Below are positions 593 through 11,843 of a stretch of 39,513 nt of DNA, piece after piece. Numbering within the stretch: the first letter of the stretch is position 1; each line of letters starts with the position of its first letter. The notes under the pieces were generated by a model. It was not told the DNA's origin. It worked only from the letters and a program-made list of their open reading frames with translations, and searched no databases. A program made the position numbers and the translations under genes. The DNA is from a virus, in the IMG/VR virus record IMGVR_UViG_3300013094_000122, positions 1-39,513 of that record, one strand, 5' to 3'.

Positions 593-2499
593 ACTCTACG
601 TATATTAGTCTCAATGATCCAGCGTAATGTTGGATCAACTTCTCTTACGTTGAAGTTATCACCATAACTCACAGTATCATCGGACTTAGCAGTTCTGTTG
701 ATACTCTTAGAGTTGTCGACCACAATAGGTTTTAATGAACCTGTTGTGGTTTTTTCATTTTGGTTCTCAGCAATTGCTGCTTGCACTCTTGATGACACAG
801 CACTCGGTGATGATCCAGCCGGTGTTGCGGTCATAGAACCTACGGTTGGTGGTGAAACAAAGCCTCTACCTGCGCCTGCGGAAGAGGCAGGAGAAGTACT
901 ACCGGCAGTAGGTGTAGGTGATGGTGTGGTCGTTGCAGATGCAGTTTTAGGAGGTGCAATAGGTGTACTTTCAACCTTTGTTGCAGTTTCAGTGCCTGTA
1001 ATCTCTTTGATAGAATCCGAAATGTCTTGCAGTCTAGCACTTGATGCTCTTGGATCATCATCTTCAGGGAATACACCATAAGTTTCTTTATAGATGTCTC
1101 TGGCCATCAGTGCAACATCTATTGCAACAGAACCAGCAGTACCGACACCAGGAATAGTACCAAGTGCACCAGATGTTGCTTCAGCAGCCGCACCTTTGAA
1201 ATCGCCCGCCATTGCACGGTCAGCAGCAAACCAAAGACCTGCGCCAAGACCAATCAATGGTATCTTTTTAACTATCGATTTGCCTGCGGCACCTAAAGCC
1301 TTGGTGACTGCCTTCTTAATCAATGTCTTATCTGCAACTTTTGATGCTGCTTTGCCAACAGATTCAGCGGCTTCTTTTCCTGCAACTTTACCTAAGCCTT
1401 TTGCTGCGGCTCTTTGTGCAATCTTTTCTTCAGCAGTCATTAAGAAACCAGGTTTCTCAGCAATCTTGGTTACGGTTGTTGCAGACTTGCTTGCAACTTC
1501 AGTGGCAACCTTTTCACCAGCAGAACCAGTTAAGAATTTACCAAGTTTACCAATGCCTTTACCAACCGAACGATTGGCACGTAGAACAGATTTGACCAAG
1601 TTTCTACCAATCTTGGTCTTTAACATTCTTTTAAGTGCAAACTTACCGCCTTGATATGCGGCAACACCTTCAATTATGTCACCAACTACACTACTACTAT
1701 CACCTTCACCACCGGCACCACCGACACCAACTGGTGTGGCAGTTTTACCACCAGCGGATTTGATGACTTCTTTATTCCATTCAGTGCGTTCTTTCTTACG
1801 TGCCTTTTCTTCATCACGGTCTAGTTCATGTTGCTTGATATCTTCCTCATGATACTTCTTCATAAGGTTAAGTAATCGTGCCATTAAGTCACCAGTACCG
1901 TCACCTTTACGGAATCTACGTTGCTGGTTTTCAGAAACAGAAGTATATGTTGCAGTGTCTAATGCACCAACTTTCTTGCCTGTTGTAGCAGGATTACTTA
2001 CTGCTTTAATTTTTGATTTTGTACGTCTACGACCAGTGAAATACTCCAAGTCATTATCACTACGACCAGTGGCCAAACCCAAAATGGTCGCACCAAGTGG
2101 ACCAGTAAATCTTCTTGCAATACTCAATGGGTCAAATGCCTCTTGGAACCCCATCATTTTGGCTTCAAAAGATTCTGATAAAGTCTTTGTTATGGCACCA
2201 AAACCATGACCTTCTAATAGATTTTCTCTAAACAGGTCTTTCAATCCGGTGTTTCTAATTGCACGGCCTTTGTTACGAGACATGCCACCTTCAGTTTGTG
2301 TTTTATCTTGAGGTTTTTCTGCCTCTTTATTTTCAATTGGTGTGTTTGGATTACCCAAAACTTCTTTTTCTTTTCTACTTGCCAAACGTCCAAAACCACC
2401 TTTTTTGTGCACCTCGTACCATGCACCCTTACCTCCAAAGGCCTTTTTGTCCCAAAGGAAATCTTTTTTACCTGCTTTTCTTACTATTGGTTGGTCCAT
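589..2499 (-). CDS. 636-aa virion protein, tape-measure/hub candidate
   Basis: No firm family match. It is the last gene of the minus-strand operon, two genes downstream of the gp26 chaperone, where tape-measure or hub proteins are usual. The N-terminal third is basic; residues about 174-245 hold a conserved 'KKVGALDTATY...RKGDG' block followed by a charged helical stretch, and the same block occurs in the 506-aa protein upstream. Residues about 270-470 are Ala/Gly/Lys-rich with hydrophobic helices (about 412-432 and 445-465), as in tape measures that contact membrane. Residues about 510-575 are a Ser/Thr/Pro/Ala-rich low-complexity linker, then a short folded C-terminus. If fully helical its length would suit a tail near T4's (T4 gp29 is 590 aa); this is inference. 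The ATG overlaps the upstream stop (TAATG), suggesting coupled translation. Confidence 0.55.
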   Translation of the reverse strand: MDQPIVRKAGKKDFLWDKKAFGGKGAWYEVHKKGGFGRLASRKEKEVLGNPNTPIENKEAEKPQDKTQTEGGMSRNKGRAIRNTGLKDLFRENLLEGHGFGAITKTLSESFEAKMMGFQEAFDPLSIARRFTGPLGATILGLATGRSDNDLEYFTGRRRTKSKIKAVSNPATTGKKVGALDTATYTSVSENQQRRFRKGDGTGDLMARLLNLMKKYHEEDIKQHELDRDEEKARKKERTEWNKEVIKSAGGKTATPVGVGGAGGEGDSSSVVGDIIEGVAAYQGGKFALKRMLKTKIGRNLVKSVLRANRSVGKGIGKLGKFLTGSAGEKVATEVASKSATTVTKIAEKPGFLMTAEEKIAQRAAAKGLGKVAGKEAAESVGKAASKVADKTLIKKAVTKALGAAGKSIVKKIPLIGLGAGLWFAADRAMAGDFKGAAAEATSGALGTIPGVGTAGSVAIDVALMARDIYKETYGVFPEDDDPRASSARLQDISDSIKEITGTETATKVESTPIAPPKTASATTTPSPTPTAGSTSPASSAGAGRGFVSPPTVGSMTATPAGSSPSAVSSRVQAAIAENQNEKTTTGSLKPIVVDNSKSINRTAKSDDTVSYGDNFNVREVDPTLRWIIETNIRRV

Positions 2500-4019
2500 T
2501 ATACGTAACTCAGTTTATTTTGTAATAGTTGTGGTGCGTCAGACATGGGTGGTCGTTGAACGATGTTGACAGTTTTTGGTCTTATTGTATTATTTACAAC
2601 AGTTGAATTGTTCACTAAAGCCAAAGTGCCACCGTCAGAATCTTTCTTCATGTCGGAGTTCTCGGTAGAAACCTTATTTAACTGTTGACCAACAGAAGGT
2701 GCGGTTGTTTGTGGTGTAACAACTGCCACCCTAGTTGGTTCTGGTGATCCTGGTGTTGTTGAACCATCTGGTTTTACAATAGCAACTCTACCAGGAGTGA
2801 AACCTTCAACTTTTTCAGAAGCTTTCAACCATGCTTGTTTTTGACTCTCATTCAAACTTGCAACTGCTGTTGAATCTGGTACACCAATAGCAGTAGTCAC
2901 TTGTTTTATGTAATTCTCTGTATTGTTTTCTGAAGGTGGTGCATATTTGCTTATTGCTTGACGAACACTAAGATTCTTATACAAGTTTGAATTAAACAAA
3001 AGATTATATCTTGCCTTTTCACCTGCCTCTAGTGTTGGGAAAACAGCAAAACCACCTGATTCACCAATAGAACCATTCTCTTTAGCAATAGAACCATTTC
3101 TTAAATTTCCAGGATTATTGTTGCGCCAAGAGATTGTTCCACCTTCACGTGATTCAACTGAACCATCAGGTAAAGGAATCTTAGTAAAAATACCAGCATT
3201 CAAAAATTTACCCGATGCAACACCTTTTGCTGCCAAGGTTGCACCGGCTGCACCAGCAGCTGCGGCACCAACTGGACTACTCAACACAGAACCAATACCA
3301 CGGGAAACTGCACTAATGCCTCTTGAGGTTGTAGATAAAGCGAACTTAGCAACACTACTCAATACACCTTCTTTTGGTTCTGGTTTACCGAAATTTTGTA
3401 ATGGATGACCAGCAGAAGCAGGTGTTGCGTTTGTCTGAGTAACTCTCTGTACCACCTCAGGATGTTCTTCTGCACCAATTTTGGAGACTTTCTCCAACGT
3501 GGCACCTTTGCGTGTCAATGATTGTTCTTCTGGTTCCCTATCACCTTTAATTTGACGCAATAGAGATTCATGTGCACGTTTTTCTTTTTCGTGTTCTTCT
3601 TTTTTAAAGTCTCTGGTCAACTCTCGTTGAGTTTTTGTTTGTTCACGAGCAGCCTTCATGAAGTTGATTACTTTGGCAACAACATCGGCAACACCGTCAC
3701 CTTTTCTCATTCTTTGTTTCTGGTCTTCAGAAATTGAAGAATAGTTGGCAGTGTCTAACTTACCAACTTTTTTACCACTATTTGGTGCAACCTTGATTGG
3801 GTCTTTTTTATCGTCTTGACCAGTCAACTTATTGACAGTATCATCACCCAATGGTTTGCCCATGGCATTTGACATCGTTTGTGGGTCAAATTTCTTTTTG
3901 ATTTTGTTGACCGTATTGACAGTCTTTTCACTTGGCTTCGGTTTGAACAAGGCAGGAGTCTGCCCCGAAATCTTGTTCGGTTTAGGACCCCCACCAAGTA
4001 ATGAAGCTATCTGTGTCAT
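2499..4019 (-). CDS. 506-aa virion protein with putative peptidoglycan-hydrolase domain
   Basis: The protein starts by ATGA overlap with the tail-chaperone extension frame, so it occupies the canonical tape-measure slot. Regions: a basic N-terminus; residues about 82-160 with 'KKVGKLDTANY...RKGDG' and a charged coiled coil, shared with the 636-aa protein; an Ala/Gly-rich hydrophobic stretch about 225-270; residues about 293-410 with 'WRNNNPGNLRNG', 'FPTLEAG' and 'YAPPSENNTENYI'; then a Pro/Thr linker and a short Asn/Val C-terminus. I recall the NNPGN...EAG...YAP..EN.T.YI pattern from phage and prophage proteins annotated as virion peptidoglycan hydrolases, so this may be the particle-borne wall-degrading activity that the split gp5 here lacks. 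Whether it is the tape measure, a hub protein or both is open. Confidence 0.6.
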   Translation of the reverse strand: MTQIASLLGGGPKPNKISGQTPALFKPKPSEKTVNTVNKIKKKFDPQTMSNAMGKPLGDDTVNKLTGQDDKKDPIKVAPNSGKKVGKLDTANYSSISEDQKQRMRKGDGVADVVAKVINFMKAAREQTKTQRELTRDFKKEEHEKEKRAHESLLRQIKGDREPEEQSLTRKGATLEKVSKIGAEEHPEVVQRVTQTNATPASAGHPLQNFGKPEPKEGVLSSVAKFALSTTSRGISAVSRGIGSVLSSPVGAAAAGAAGATLAAKGVASGKFLNAGIFTKIPLPDGSVESREGGTISWRNNNPGNLRNGSIAKENGSIGESGGFAVFPTLEAGEKARYNLLFNSNLYKNLSVRQAISKYAPPSENNTENYIKQVTTAIGVPDSTAVASLNESQKQAWLKASEKVEGFTPGRVAIVKPDGSTTPGSPEPTRVAVVTPQTTAPSVGQQLNKVSTENSDMKKDSDGGTLALVNNSTVVNNTIRPKTVNIVQRPPMSDAPQLLQNKLSYV

Positions 4020-4255
4020 CTACTGTTGTTTTTCTGCTTAATTTTTTCGTTTTCTTCTTCAATGTATTGTGTAAGCATAACAACGTAAATATCTCTTTCC
4101 CAAGGCATCATCGATTCAAGTTCTGTCAAACTATACTTGTGGTGTTGCATCAATGCAAAATTTGTAGTATAGTAATTCCTTAGGGTATCATGACGAAATG
4201 TTAACCGAAAAAATCTTCTAGCCCTTCCACTTCTATGTGGTGTTGGAATCCACAT
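4016..4255 (-). CDS. Tail assembly chaperone C-terminal extension, read by -1 frameshift from gp26
   Basis: This frame opens inside the 3' end of the gp26-like gene; its first ATG (4255) is out of frame within gp26 and has no ribosome-binding site. The first 16 residues simply translate gp26 codons in another frame and look unnatural (RSGRARRFFR), so an independent start there is unlikely. It is in the -1 frame relative to gp26, and a T-TTT-TTC heptamer lies 3 nt before the gp26 stop. Slippage would give a fusion of about 303 residues: 240 of gp26 plus 63 from this frame. The C-terminal part (YSLTELESMMPWERDIYV..., then a Glu/Lys-rich tail) resembles the short second domain of tail assembly chaperones (lambda G-T type). 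The stop overlaps the next start as ATGA. An internal ATG at 4150 also lacks a clear Shine-Dalgarno. Confidence 0.72.
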   Translation of the reverse strand: MWIPTPHRSGRARRFFRLTFRHDTLRNYYTTNFALMQHHKYSLTELESMMPWERDIYVVMLTQYIEEENEKIKQKNNSR

Positions 4256-4926
4256 TTCTTACATGTCATATCCAACGTTTTCACCATTCTTGGAAGGTTG
4301 TTAAAGAAATTCTCAATCTTAGAAAACTGTTCCTGACTTAACGATTCAACAAAGTCATTCAATTCAGACGGATCAGTTTCATTTGCATAGTAATACTGTT
4401 CACTATCAGTAATGTATTCAATGCTCTCAATAATCATATTGAAAGCCATATCTGTTGCCAATGCAAATTTATTAGCAGAGGAAACAATAGAATACTGTGG
4501 GTATCTCAACTTAACAAAAATCTTATCATTAATTTGAATCAAATCGTCTGGTGTGTTACTCATGTCAACCTTGATATCCAACAGGTTAACATCAGCTTCC
4601 ATCATTCCACCACAAGGTTTGTCTTCAACTATGTTCTCACAACGATATTTATTGGTAACGATTTCACCAACAGAACGTGCACGTAGATTCAAAAAGTAAA
4701 ACTCAACATCAAGAATTGGCAACTTATCGATATCCAAATCTTCTGTCAAAGTACAATTATGTAAAATCTGTTTGATGTTCTTCTCGATGGTGTCTTTGTC
4801 GTCAGACTCCATGGCCATCAATAAGTTACGTTGTTCTTTGACCAAGAAAGGTCTAAATCTAATATGTTTCTTTGATAAAGGTAGGTCTATCTCATAGACC
4901 GGCGCATCAATTTTTGGTAAAGCCAT
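4201..4926 (-). CDS. 26: gp26-like baseplate hub / tail assembly chaperone
   Basis: The 241-aa product matches the T4 gp26 family (Pfam 'T4 bacteriophage base plate protein'): 'LPKIDAPVYEIDLP', then 'RFRPFLVKEQRNLLMAME' near the N-terminus are its hallmarks. T4 gp26 (about 208 aa) is needed for hub assembly. Two cysteine pairs (C96...C105 and C222/C225 in 'CKKCG') could bind a metal. The start ATG follows ATGGAGATTTATA, with GGAG eight bases upstream, and 30 nt separate it from the gene before. Its position just upstream of the presumed tape-measure genes, plus the slippery heptamer at its end, suggests that it is the zero-frame product of a frameshifting tail-chaperone gene, like lambda gpG. 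Family assignment is firm; the chaperone role is inference. Confidence 0.85.
   Translation of the reverse strand: MALPKIDAPVYEIDLPLSKKHIRFRPFLVKEQRNLLMAMESDDKDTIEKNIKQILHNCTLTEDLDIDKLPILDVEFYFLNLRARSVGEIVTNKYRCENIVEDKPCGGMMEADVNLLDIKVDMSNTPDDLIQINDKIFVKLRYPQYSIVSSANKFALATDMAFNMIIESIEYITDSEQYYYANETDPSELNDFVESLSQEQFSKIENFFNNLPRMVKTLDMTCKKCGFQHHIEVEGLEDFFG
4207..4213 (-). other. Probable -1 ribosomal frameshift slippery heptamer (T TTT TTC)
   Basis: In the gp26 reading frame the last codons are GAT TTT TTC GGT TAA, giving an X-XXY-YYZ heptamer T-TTT-TTC. After slipping one base back the ribosome reads CGG TTA ACA and continues for 63 codons to 4016. Eight bases upstream lies a Shine-Dalgarno-like GGAAGGG. 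I found no strong stem-loop immediately downstream; a small TTGCA/TGCAA hairpin occurs about 50 nt further on. Confidence 0.75.
4222..4228 (-). promoter_or_regulatory. Internal Shine-Dalgarno-like element upstream of the slippery site
   Basis: GGAAGGG lies in gp26 codons, eight bases before the T-TTT-TTC heptamer. In E. coli dnaX an internal Shine-Dalgarno about ten bases before the slippery site stimulates -1 shifting, so a similar role is plausible here. It does not precede any usable start codon at normal spacing. Confidence 0.45.
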
Positions 4927-4956: not shown

Positions 4957-5679
4957 TTACGAATTTACTGAACCTGGTGTTCCTGAATTTGGTAAACCTA
5001 TCTGGTCTGCTGCTGAAATTGGTGGTGGTGGACTTGGTGGTTGTCCAGTGGGTATTGCACCCAATGTTTCATATGATGCTTGAAATAGTGAAGATAAACC
5101 AGTAGGTACATTAGTTGTATTTGCCAATGGCACAAAAGAACCAACATAACTATTCTTAACAACACTATTTTGCCAATAGTCGTATGCAAAAACAACAGTC
5201 AACTTATGTACACTATCTGTGGACCAATCTAAGTCTAGTTGATTTACTGTGATTGGATATGCGTTATACAAGATACATTGATACGTTGTGTTTGAGGCCA
5301 AATCATATTGATTCACATAAATTGTAGCCTGATACTGTTCTTTGTAAGTAAAGTCAAATGTTACGGTTGGATTAATCAATTCCATCCAGTTATCGAAGAA
5401 AACTTTCTCTGACATATCACCAGAAACAATAAAACTCAAAGTCAAATCATTATAAGATGAGTGTATTGGATATTTCTGTGTTGGATTGGAACCAAACTTC
5501 TGGTCAACAGTACCAAAAGTTCTACTCGGCAACTCAGCAGTCTCGCAACGTAAGGTTAACTGTCTTAACAGACTTGGACTTGCAATTGTTGAAATTGGAA
5601 TGATAGTAACATCAAACTTACTCGGACGTGCCAACTCTTTTTTAAATGAGTTTATAAATGAAGACATTTGTACTGACAT
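4957..5679 (-). CDS. T4 gp19-family tail-tube-fold protein (tube or tube-initiator)
   Basis: The 240-aa protein carries the pattern of the T4 gp19 tail-tube family: 'LARPSKFDVTI' near the N-terminus, 'CETAELPSRTFGTVDQKFG', 'YPIHSSYNDLTLSFIVSGDM', 'FFDNWMELINP', and 'YPITVNQLDLDWSTDSVHKLTVVFAYDYWQ' near residue 170 onward. The last about 40 residues are a Pro/Gly/Ser-rich tail. The main tail tube gene of T4-like phages usually sits beside the sheath gene, which is not in this window, so this copy may instead be a tube-like baseplate ring (gp54-like); that is inference. It starts one base after the stop of the 210-aa gene; a second ATG at codon 5 is an equally possible start. The gp26-like gene follows after 30 nt. 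Confidence 0.72.
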   Translation of the reverse strand: MSVQMSSFINSFKKELARPSKFDVTIIPISTIASPSLLRQLTLRCETAELPSRTFGTVDQKFGSNPTQKYPIHSSYNDLTLSFIVSGDMSEKVFFDNWMELINPTVTFDFTYKEQYQATIYVNQYDLASNTTYQCILYNAYPITVNQLDLDWSTDSVHKLTVVFAYDYWQNSVVKNSYVGSFVPLANTTNVPTGLSSLFQASYETLGAIPTGQPPSPPPPISAADQIGLPNSGTPGSVNS

Positions 5680-8473: not shown

Positions 8474-9832
8474 ATGGCAGGTATACGTAATCCAAAGGAC
8501 TATGCATTAGTCAACTTAACACTGCTGACGGCCGTGGGTGCTTTAGACATTCGTTATCTAATGAATGAGGTATCGTATCAAGAAGATTTATTTAAGAATA
8601 CTGTTCACGGTTATGTGTTGTTGACTGAAGGTGTTGGTTATGCCGAAATACTTAACTTAACAGGTAATGAAACTTTACAACTGACATTCAATAAATCTGG
8701 AAATGGAAGTTCTGCAAAATTGGGTGAACAGGTCGATAAGACATTCCGCGTATACAAGATTGACAAGAGAGCCTTATCTGGCAATATGTACACCGAACAA
8801 TATTGTTTGTACTTTTGCTCAGAAGAAATGGTACTATCAGAACAATATAAGATTAGTAAATCATATCCAAACAAAGATATTGCATCAAACATCACGGACA
8901 TATGCAAAACATATCTTGGCATTCCAGACAAAAAATTAAACATCGATCCAACATATGGAACATATAGCTTTGTTGTACCAAACATAAAACCATTTGATGC
9001 CATTAATTGGATGTCAACTTATGCAAGACCAATGGCGCCGGTACCTGGTGCAGATATGTTGTTCTTTGAAAATAAGAATGGTTTTAATTTCAAGTCTTTA
9101 CAAAACTTAATGGACAGTCAAAACACTGTTGCATATGGTAGTTATAGATATGATCCTAAAAATACAAACCAATCTAATTTGGAAGAAGAAGCAGAAAACG
9201 TTACAACATATGAAGTGATGAGTACATATGATGCCTTGAGTGCTGTAAATTCAGGTTTGTTTGCAAATCAATTGATATCGGTTGACATACTAACTCGTTC
9301 AAAAAAGGTAACTAATTTTGACTATTTTGACTACTGGAATAACCAACCATCGTTGGGTTTGAACAAGTATCCAATCACAAACAATTACAAAAACAGATTC
9401 GGCGACCAAATGAATCAAGCAGAGCAATCTGTCTTGAAATTGGTATTCTCCAACTTTGATGAAGCCAATAACTCAGTTGTACAAGCCAATCCAGGTTCTG
9501 TTGCACCAAACATCTTTGCAGAGACATACATACCATACAGAACAGCACAGTTGGCACTATCTAACTACACCAGAGTTAAGATGTCTGTACCTGGAGACCC
9601 AAACTTATCTGTTGGATATACAATTGAGTTTGAATTATTGTCACGAAATCCAAATCCGCAACAAAAAATACCAGATGCATTTTTGTCTGGTGATTATTTG
9701 GTGACTGCGGTAAGACATATGATTACACAATCTGACTATAAAACAGTCATGGAAGTAGCAAAAGATAGTGTACCAACTCAATATGCTAGTATATCTACAA
9801 CATCTTCATTGAATAAAACGGTGGTTAGTTAA
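8474..9832 (+). CDS. 27: Baseplate hub protein (gp27-like)
   Basis: A 452-aa protein in the slot and size range of the gp27 hub (T4 gp27 is 391 aa), the trimeric ring linking the spike to the tail tube. Segments that match phage hub proteins are 'VSYQEDLFKNTVHGYVLLTEGVGYAEILNLTGNETLQLTF', 'FRVYKIDKRAL...YCLYFCSEEM', 'DICKTYLG', 'FDAINWMSTYARP' and the long region ending 'AQLALSNYTRVKMSVPGDPNLSVGYTIEFEL'. The context, followed at once by the OB-fold part of gp5, makes the call firm, because gp27 and gp5 form one complex in T4. The stop overlaps the next start as TAATG. Confidence 0.82.
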   Translation: MAGIRNPKDYALVNLTLLTAVGALDIRYLMNEVSYQEDLFKNTVHGYVLLTEGVGYAEILNLTGNETLQLTFNKSGNGSSAKLGEQVDKTFRVYKIDKRALSGNMYTEQYCLYFCSEEMVLSEQYKISKSYPNKDIASNITDICKTYLGIPDKKLNIDPTYGTYSFVVPNIKPFDAINWMSTYARPMAPVPGADMLFFENKNGFNFKSLQNLMDSQNTVAYGSYRYDPKNTNQSNLEEEAENVTTYEVMSTYDALSAVNSGLFANQLISVDILTRSKKVTNFDYFDYWNNQPSLGLNKYPITNNYKNRFGDQMNQAEQSVLKLVFSNFDEANNSVVQANPGSVAPNIFAETYIPYRTAQLALSNYTRVKMSVPGDPNLSVGYTIEFELLSRNPNPQQKIPDAFLSGDYLVTAVRHMITQSDYKTVMEVAKDSVPTQYASISTTSSLNKTVVS

Positions 9833-10164
9833 TGAAAGCAGTAAATAATTTTGCCGGTTTAAATGGATTTGTTTGGTGGGTTGGTGCCGTAGAGAACAGG
9901 GCAGACCCATTAGGTCTTGGTCGTTGTCAAGTTCGTATCTTTGGTTGGCACACAGACAACATATCTTTAATTCCAACAACAGATTTGCCATGGGCACATC
10001 CAATGAACTCAATAAATACTGCCAAACAGTTTCAACCACTAGAGATTGGTGATTGGGTTGTTGGATTTTTCATGGACGGTGAGAGTGGTCAATTTCCAAT
10101 AATGATGGGTGTATTGCCTGGTTTCTCAGGTGAGACTTCAGGAACCGGAGCTTCAAAGGTATAA
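9832..10164 (+). CDS. 5: gp5 N-terminal OB-fold domain as a separate protein
   Basis: A 110-aa protein equal to the OB-fold domain at the start of T4 gp5, which joins the spike to the gp27 hub. Motifs: 'GFVWWVGAVENRADPLGLGRCQVRIFGWHT', 'LPWAHPMNS' and 'EIGDWVVGFFMDGESGQFPIMMGVLPGF'. T4 gp5 continues into a lysozyme domain and a beta-helix (575 aa total), but here the frame stops after the OB fold; no lysozyme segment follows, and the beta-helix is two genes downstream as its own reading frame. There is no sign of a frameshift or decay: each piece has its own start. TAATG overlap with the hub gene. Confidence 0.87.
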   Translation: MKAVNNFAGLNGFVWWVGAVENRADPLGLGRCQVRIFGWHTDNISLIPTTDLPWAHPMNSINTAKQFQPLEIGDWVVGFFMDGESGQFPIMMGVLPGFSGETSGTGASKV

Positions 10165-10165
10165 C

Positions 10166-11017
10166 ATGGCAGAAGCAAATTCATCAGTAGCATTTGTTAA
10201 TAATGCAACAACTCAGATAGTAAATGGCATACTAAAAGAGATTAATCCACCACAATGGCCTGCTGCATTTGGTGGCAACTATCTGACACAAGGCATTCAA
10301 ACAACACCAGGTGTTGCTCGTGGTGCATTGACAAACACAGGTGTTGCATATTCAAATGCCAACTTAGCACACGCTTGTGACTTTAAATTTCAACTTGATA
10401 TTAATATTGGTGCATTGATTGGTGCAGATTTATCCGCATTAGTTGGTGCAATCAAAGCAGGCAAATTGGCTGCAGCTAATCTTATTCGAGCATCAATTCT
10501 TCAATTGCAACAAGAGTTTAATGCAGCAATCACTGCAATACTTTCTTTGTTAAATCTCGATACTTCTGGTATAGCATCATTATCTGTATCTTTGGTTTAT
10601 GATACAGGTATACGTATACAAGAAATTATCAACCAAGCTGCACAGATTCTTTATGATGTTTCTTTAGTTGCAAATTTAGTGAAAGATTTACAACAAATCA
10701 TACAATGGATTGAAAGTTTACCTGCACAATTACAAAACTTATTGAAACAATGTTTGTCAAACTTTCAAAGTTCATTAAATTCTGCAAAAAATTCTTTGTC
10801 TGTGGCATCAAACTTAGGTCAATCATTTAGTCTGGCAGCAGCAACAGCAAGTGCAACCACATCACAAACGGGAACACCTTCAGCTGCACTAACTATTACA
10901 ACATCACCATCACAACAAAATATTGGTCAGTTGCAATCATACATAACAAGTGTCACAACAAGTAGTGTGGCAACCACATCAACAAGTACACAATTTAAGA
11001 ATTCGTCAAGTCCATAA
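10166..11017 (+). CDS. Helical baseplate-hub-associated protein between gp5 parts
   Basis: A 283-aa protein without a named T4 counterpart, starting one base after the OB-fold gene; the start at 10166 (MAEANSS) follows AAAGG, whereas the longer frame from 10109 would overlap the OB gene. After an N-terminal segment with 'AHACDFKFQLDINIGALIG', residues about 85-215 are predicted helical by eye, with heptad-like Leu/Ile spacing ('ANLIRASILQLQQEFNAAITAIL', 'LVKDLQQIIQWIESLPAQLQNLLKQC'). The last 60 residues are Ser/Thr-rich. I recall similar proteins in the same position in aquatic T4-like phages. It may take a place in the hub or spike neck that the gp5 lysozyme domain fills in T4; this is inference. 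Confidence 0.72.
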   Translation: MAEANSSVAFVNNATTQIVNGILKEINPPQWPAAFGGNYLTQGIQTTPGVARGALTNTGVAYSNANLAHACDFKFQLDINIGALIGADLSALVGAIKAGKLAAANLIRASILQLQQEFNAAITAILSLLNLDTSGIASLSVSLVYDTGIRIQEIINQAAQILYDVSLVANLVKDLQQIIQWIESLPAQLQNLLKQCLSNFQSSLNSAKNSLSVASNLGQSFSLAAATASATTSQTGTPSAALTITTSPSQQNIGQLQSYITSVTTSSVATTSTSTQFKNSSSP

Positions 11018-11018
11018 T

Positions 11019-11843
11019 ATGATAGCAAAACCAGATTTTTTTACTGCATGGACAGAACCTGAATCCGCAGCCAATTCACAATATCAACCGGTATACCCAT
11101 ATAACCATGCAACACAGACCACCAGTGGTCACTCATTCGAATTGGATGATACTCCAACGAGGGAACGAGTACGACTAGAACACCGCACTGGTACTTTTAT
11201 TGAAATGCATCCTAATGGTGACGAGGTGCATAAAATCATCGGTGATGGTTATGAAATTATTCTTAAAGATAAGAATATGTTGGTGCAAGGTAAACTTAAT
11301 ATCACAGTTATTGGTGATGCCAACTTCCATATTCAAGGTGATAAGATAGAACAAGTTGATGGTAATGTAGAACAACACATCAAAGGCAACTTTACACAAA
11401 CTGTAGAGGGTATGGCAACATATACCACACAAGGTGACACACGTATTGTTGCTGGTGGCATTGGTGTTAGTGGTCTTAAAATTACTGCACCAGTTACATC
11501 GATAACTGGACAAAATATGTCAGTCAATGCAGACTTTGTGGCTGAAAAGATTACATCAAGAGGTAGAATTGATGCAACCACAGGTGTTAGTGCAGGACCA
11601 TTAGGTTTTGTAACTGTGACTGGTGGTGTTTCTGTTGGTATACCTGCAGCTGTACCAACAGAAATCAATGCAATTGGACCAATCAATTCATTGGTGTCTA
11701 TGTCTGCACCATTAGGACAATTTGCTGTGATGCAGGCAGTGTGGGCATATGATACAGTGAATCTATCGATGCACAATTCACACATTCACATCTCACCAAA
11801 AGGACCAACTGGTCCTCCAATTCCTTTGGAAATAGGAGCTTAA
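11019..11843 (+). CDS. Tail spike beta-helix (gp5 C-terminal part) as a separate protein
   Basis: A 274-aa protein equal to the C-terminal needle of T4 gp5, the membrane-piercing triple beta-helix. It begins at 11019 (MIAKPDFF), directly after the upstream stop. Residues 55-80 contain 'HRTGTFIEMHPNGDEVHKI' and 'GDGYEIIL', and then seven eight-residue repeats of the type V/I-x-G-x-x-x-x-x run through residues 89-144 (VQGKLNIT, VIGDANFH, IQGDKIEQ, VDGNVEQH and so on), as in T4 gp5. The end holds 'SHIHISPKGPTGPP' with H-x-H at 255-257, which could bind a metal ion at the tip. No lysozyme domain is present. Confidence 0.85.
   Translation: MIAKPDFFTAWTEPESAANSQYQPVYPYNHATQTTSGHSFELDDTPTRERVRLEHRTGTFIEMHPNGDEVHKIIGDGYEIILKDKNMLVQGKLNITVIGDANFHIQGDKIEQVDGNVEQHIKGNFTQTVEGMATYTTQGDTRIVAGGIGVSGLKITAPVTSITGQNMSVNADFVAEKITSRGRIDATTGVSAGPLGFVTVTGGVSVGIPAAVPTEINAIGPINSLVSMSAPLGQFAVMQAVWAYDTVNLSMHNSHIHISPKGPTGPPIPLEIGA

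Follow-up and report, generated by a model that had tools for sequence, protein, structure and literature searches.

A gp26-family gene that very probably yields a putative short and long tail chaperone pair by -1 ribosomal frameshifting

The stretch of viral DNA analysed here (the window) comprises 39,513 nucleotides of the IMG/VR record IMGVR_UViG_3300013094_000122. A row of tail genes on its minus strand runs from a tail-tube-family gene through a gp26-family gene and an overlapping extension frame to a gene in the tape-measure slot (Table 1). The gp26-family protein matches Pfam PF12322 (T4_baseplate) over its whole length (E 3.9e-58, profile 3-218 of 219) as well as phrog_150 (E 6.3e-62), and the tail-tube-family gene matches PF06841 gp19 (E 1.1e-8) and phrog_45 tail tube (E 3e-37). 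By its position, the 506-aa protein encoded in the tape-measure slot is a tape measure candidate; its PHROG matches, which include phrog_2276 tail length tape measure (E 7.4e-15), are confined to a lysozyme/transglycosylase-like segment at residues about 260-410. Elsewhere in the window, on the plus strand, the gp5-like hub/tail lysozyme gene (9832-11843) is divided among three successive genes, each opening with an ATG of its own: an OB domain (9832-10164), a middle part from the ATG at 10166, and a C-terminal part from the ATG at 11019. Of 80 related loci, at least 70 show this three-way division.

Table 1. Features of the gp26 locus, in coordinates of the window
Feature	Position	Strand	Remarks
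Tail-tube-family gene	4957..5679	-	240 aa; same gene row, just upstream of gp26
gp26-family gene, putative short tail assembly chaperone (TAC-N)	4201..4926	-	241 aa
Second-frame ATG, probably unused	4253..4255	-	By-product of gp26 KCG codons
Internal Shine-Dalgarno-like GGAAGGG, putative stimulator	4222..4228	-	8 bases 5' of the heptamer; codon bias
Slippery heptamer T_TTT_TTC	4207..4213	-	Zero-frame register; sequence and conservation in relatives
-1 frame extension (gp51 C-terminal domain, TAC-C)	4016..4207	-	63 codons and stop, read after predicted slippage
Predicted frameshift product	4016..4926	-	303 aa: gp26 through FF (residues 239-240) and 63 residues of the -1 frame
Tape-measure-slot gene	2499..4019	-	506 aa; ATG overlaps the -1 frame stop

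The gp26 frame closes with GAT TTT TTC GGT TAA, which contains the slippery heptamer noticed in the first-pass annotation, and the overlapping frame lies, as had been claimed, exactly in the -1 register. This second frame stays open as far as a TGA (4018-4016) that shares bases with the ATG (4019) opening the next gene, in the ATGA arrangement already described. In the predicted slippage, the C at 4207 would be read twice, placing EDFFRLTFR across the junction, and the product computed from this junction has the length of about 303 residues anticipated for it.

The extension is related to a known T4 protein. Among the PHROGs it hits phrog_634, annotated "baseplate hub assembly catalyst" (gp51), with an E value of 4.9e-30, and additionally the C-terminal portion of the gp26 family profile, phrog_150. 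To the latter the fusion aligns almost along its full length in a single alignment (residues 1-286 against profile positions 5-277 of 282, E 1.2e-72). In the separate gp51 proteins of T6 and Aeromonas phage 31, a complete PF12322 domain precedes the C-terminal domain that also makes up the extension, and the frameshift product would therefore be collinear with T4-type gp51. In the window, a single gp26-like domain is shared with the gp51-type end through the overlapping -1 frame. The 39.5-kb record, which is possibly incomplete, holds one copy of PF12322, and we found no separate full-length gp51 with a gp26-like domain of its own in it. The gp26 genes of T6 and STML-198, phages with a full-length gp51, end without the heptamer. 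Straboviridae gp26 and gp51 cluster together in the tree with moderate support (86/91), a grouping compatible with a gp26/gp51 duplication within the Straboviridae lineage, with due caution about long branches. The Pfam and PHROG matches between gp51 and gp26 are strong, although hhalign of the gp26 alignment against T6 gp51 returned a probability of just 12%.

The second frame lies in the -1 register in every one of 164 related loci with both parts, counted apart from the window. Dereplication of this set left 103 loci, where the -1 relation again holds in 103/103 and the slip site reads T_TTT_TTC in 98, T_TTT_TTT in four, and T_TTT_TTG in one, so that T_TTT_TTN is found throughout (103/103); it stands 10 bases ahead of the gp26 stop in 95 of them. 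Given how these genes use their codons, the joint frequency expected for T_TTT_TTN is about 0.13, and at the level of sequence the combined recurrence of the -1 relation and this motif across the 103 loci is far above chance. One of the two locus searches used a pattern touching the slip site, which could bias the count; with gp26 patterns not touching the site, 31/31 dereplicated loci carry T_TTT_TTC. Excess synonymous conservation peaks at the three heptamer codons (1.0 versus 0.60 expected for TTT), and synonymous suppression in gp26 is not clearly raised beyond these codons and the first codons of the gene. Right after the slip site, the codon periodicity of conservation follows the -1 frame, with codon positions ranked 2>1>3 (1.48/0.98/0.68 bits). 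A sequencing error or a pseudogene is ruled out by the conservation in the 103 dereplicated loci.

A Shine-Dalgarno-like GGARGG recurs about 9 bases 5' of the heptamer across the relatives. The GGAAGGG of the window had already been pointed out, eight bases upstream of the heptamer, and the comparison with relatives adds that the element is under codon-level selection: GTG is used in 37/56 cases against a baseline of 0.125 (p 1e-20) and GAG in 47/89 against a baseline of 0.208 (p 3e-11). The mean energy of the duplex with the anti-Shine-Dalgarno sequence is -7.3 kcal/mol, versus -1.9 kcal/mol in controls. A conserved 3' stimulatory stem is unsupported, folding against dinucleotide shuffles giving mean z values of -0.3 to -0.9. 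The U-run heptamer in the zero-frame register, the Shine-Dalgarno-like element about 9 bases upstream, and a stop one codon downstream fit programmed -1 ribosomal frameshifting with an internal Shine-Dalgarno stimulator.

An alternative is that the second frame is a small gene apart, with a start codon of its own or with reinitiation by ribosomes that have terminated at the gp26 stop. Cyanophage annotations treat it in this way, for example gp51 of P-SSM2, which starts just past the gp26 stop; an ATG or GTG does lie near that stop in 25/103 loci, where coupled reinitiation would be possible, and Vibrio members of the Ackermannviridae have TAATG and no heptamer. Between the upstream stop and position +33, however, ATG, GTG, and TTG are all absent in 44/103 loci, and ATG and GTG in 66/103. 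Moreover, most annotated starts lie downstream of the slip site, where the conserved peptide begins. In the window, the surroundings of the gp26 stop offer no start. Its sole candidate, an ATG 42 bases 5' of the heptamer that opens a 79-aa ORF, was overlooked when the first-pass annotation described the second frame as lacking a plausible start. This ATG arises incidentally from the gp26 codons that encode a conserved K-C-G (AAA TGT GG). It is not conserved as a start, the -1 frame being closed by a stop between its position and the heptamer in 88/103 relatives, which upholds the substance of the earlier description. A separate gene would also leave the conservation of both the heptamer and the Shine-Dalgarno-like element without a reason, and we consider this explanation very unlikely.

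Still more improbable is that the long product arises during transcription, by polymerase slippage on the T6 run, and not by ribosomal frameshifting. The site is indeed a homopolymer run, extended to T8 in two records (HTVC008M and Melnitz), but polymerase slippage would require neither the fixed zero-frame register nor a selected Shine-Dalgarno-like element, and a run of six T ending in C is rather short for such slippage. A different doubt concerns function: frameshifting may be real while its product serves as a structural or hub-specific factor and not, as in the G/GT pair, as a chaperone for the tape measure. The long-standing names "baseplate hub" and "hub assembly catalyst" point in this direction, as does the outcome of the structural search. 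The AlphaFold2 model of gp26 is confident (mean pLDDT 86), and its fold search against the PDB gave no match at E <= 0.001. Of solved tail chaperones, to which no sequence similarity was shown either, HK97 gp13 (2ob9) came up at rank 30 with an E value of 5 and a probability of 0.20, too weak to use; among predicted viral structures the model matched mostly other gp26, baseplate hub, or unnamed proteins. Against a hub-specific role stand the short/long pair itself, the gene position between the tail-tube-family gene and the tape-measure slot, the chaperone status of T4 gp26 and gp51, which are listed as hub assembly chaperones with gp51 absent from the final particle (PMC3004832), and the identification of T4-like tail assembly chaperones by Vladimirov, Gautam and Davidson (2022, Virology 566:9-15), as cited in PMC10274946 and PMC12846349. 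A hub-specific or structural role seems unlikely to us, though less so than the two alternatives to ribosomal frameshifting.

We are confident that the gp26 gene yields two proteins by -1 ribosomal frameshifting, presumably a short and a long chaperone, and the virus of the window very probably makes the long form by a -1 slip near the gp26 3' end. Most ribosomes would stop at the TAA and release the 241-residue short chaperone, whereas a minority, probably paused by the internal Shine-Dalgarno-like sequence, would slip back one base on U_UUU_UUC and read 63 more codons into the protein collinear with T4 gp51. Sequence comparison establishes the slip site, its register, the selection on it and on the Shine-Dalgarno-like element, and the homology of the extension to the gp51 C-terminus; slippage itself, its rate, and the chaperone function are inferred. 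By analogy, the tape measure protein might be coated by many short and few long copies, with the C-terminal domain of the long form recruiting tail tube subunits in tail and hub assembly. A tail chaperone function of the G/GT type is suggested for gp26 and its long form by the homology to T4 gp26/gp51, the gene order, and the lambda G/GT precedent (PMC5009743).

The same arrangement reaches well beyond the closest relatives. In the alignment of related gp26 genes proposed in the first-pass annotation, the heptamer, the -1 frame, and a PWERDIY-type segment have been retained jointly throughout the clade; the trio extends, in diverged form, to cyanophages and to phages of Pelagibacter, Sinorhizobium, Vibrio, Aeromonas, and Acidovorax. 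The slip site recurs unchanged in Aeh1, Aeromonas phage 65.2, AS-szw, Vibrio D482, Acidovorax ACP17, SRB7757, and Stenotrophomonas Moby, and as T_TTT_TT[T/G] variants in phiM12, HTVC008M, Melnitz, and P10VF. The distant Ackermannviridae and related Vibrio phages (L171, L178, L181-L187) keep the gp51-type -1 frame and have ATT TTC, GTT TTC, or CTT TT[TC] in place of the canonical heptamer. In four Vibrio members of the Ackermannviridae, the gp26 stop reads TAATG; with the heptamer absent as well, the second frame may therefore be a separate gene there, which suggests a change in its mode of expression. A missing heptamer combined with a separately started second gene, a pattern that had been named as evidence against frameshifting, was encountered only in these distant Ackermannviridae, most clearly in the Vibrio subgroup.

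Many deposited T4-like genomes misannotate or omit the gp51-type extension protein. Aeromonas phage Aeh1 (L179, 1501-1668) has an unannotated -1 extension with T_TTT_TTC after gp26, and in S-PRM1, ACG-2014e (L163, L164), L165, and L166 the extension is unannotated or its start truncated in the deposited genomes. According to Sullivan et al. (2010, PMC3037559), Aeh1 lacks gp51 and cyanophages have a truncated one, and the frameshift extension offers a reason for both the "missing" Aeh1 gp51 and the truncated-looking cyanophage gp51.

Several known systems resemble the one proposed here. The closest, the T4-like gp26/gp51 chaperones, belong to the same protein families, T4 having a separate full-length gp51 where the window and its clade have an overlapping -1 frame. 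The comparison with lambda gpG/gpGT made in the first-pass annotation is reasonable, even though the fold search did not connect gp26 to solved tail chaperones. Lambda likewise makes a short form and, by a -1 shift close to the 3' end, a minor extended one from a gene preceding the tape measure slot, and the window shares with the G/GT type an in-register slip site at the 3' end of the first ORF, a conserved -1 extension, and a position between the tail-tube-family and tape-measure-slot genes. The lambda heptamer, G_GGA_AAG, differs from T_TTT_TTC. Escherichia coli dnaX also has an internal Shine-Dalgarno-like stimulator 5' of its slip site, about 10 bases upstream, and in addition a 3' stem-loop stimulator, of which no conserved counterpart was found in the clade of the window. 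In Vandenendeviridae/Andersonviridae (Pseudomonas phage Adele, PMC12846349), a myovirus tail chaperone likewise has a T-rich -1 site, and annotations routinely get its extension wrong, but the motif is GTTTTT and the phage families are others, whereas the window has T_TTT_TTC with the Shine-Dalgarno-like element.

The link between gp26 and tail chaperones, put forward in the first-pass annotation, is supported by our analysis, but as an idea it was preceded by Vladimirov et al. (2022). A 2025 paper (PMC12846349) credits that study with the poly-T -1 frameshift signal in T4-like TAC-N genes, and some T4-like phages have separate short and long genes in place of frameshifting (PMC10274946). As far as these citing papers represent it, neither the frameshift device in T4-like phages nor the link of gp26/gp51 to chaperones is new; what we add is detail on the Shine-Dalgarno-like element, the annotation gaps, and the exceptions. 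It is possible, and we propose it tentatively, that the gp26 frameshift, with a U-run, an internal Shine-Dalgarno sequence, and no 3' structure, was the ancestral state of the T4-like supergroup and was lost at least twice, some Straboviridae having replaced it by a duplicated full-length gp51 and the Vibrio Ackermannviridae by a separately started short gene. Strong comparative evidence now places gp26 and gp51, long known from T4 as "baseplate hub" proteins, within the general scheme of tail chaperones.
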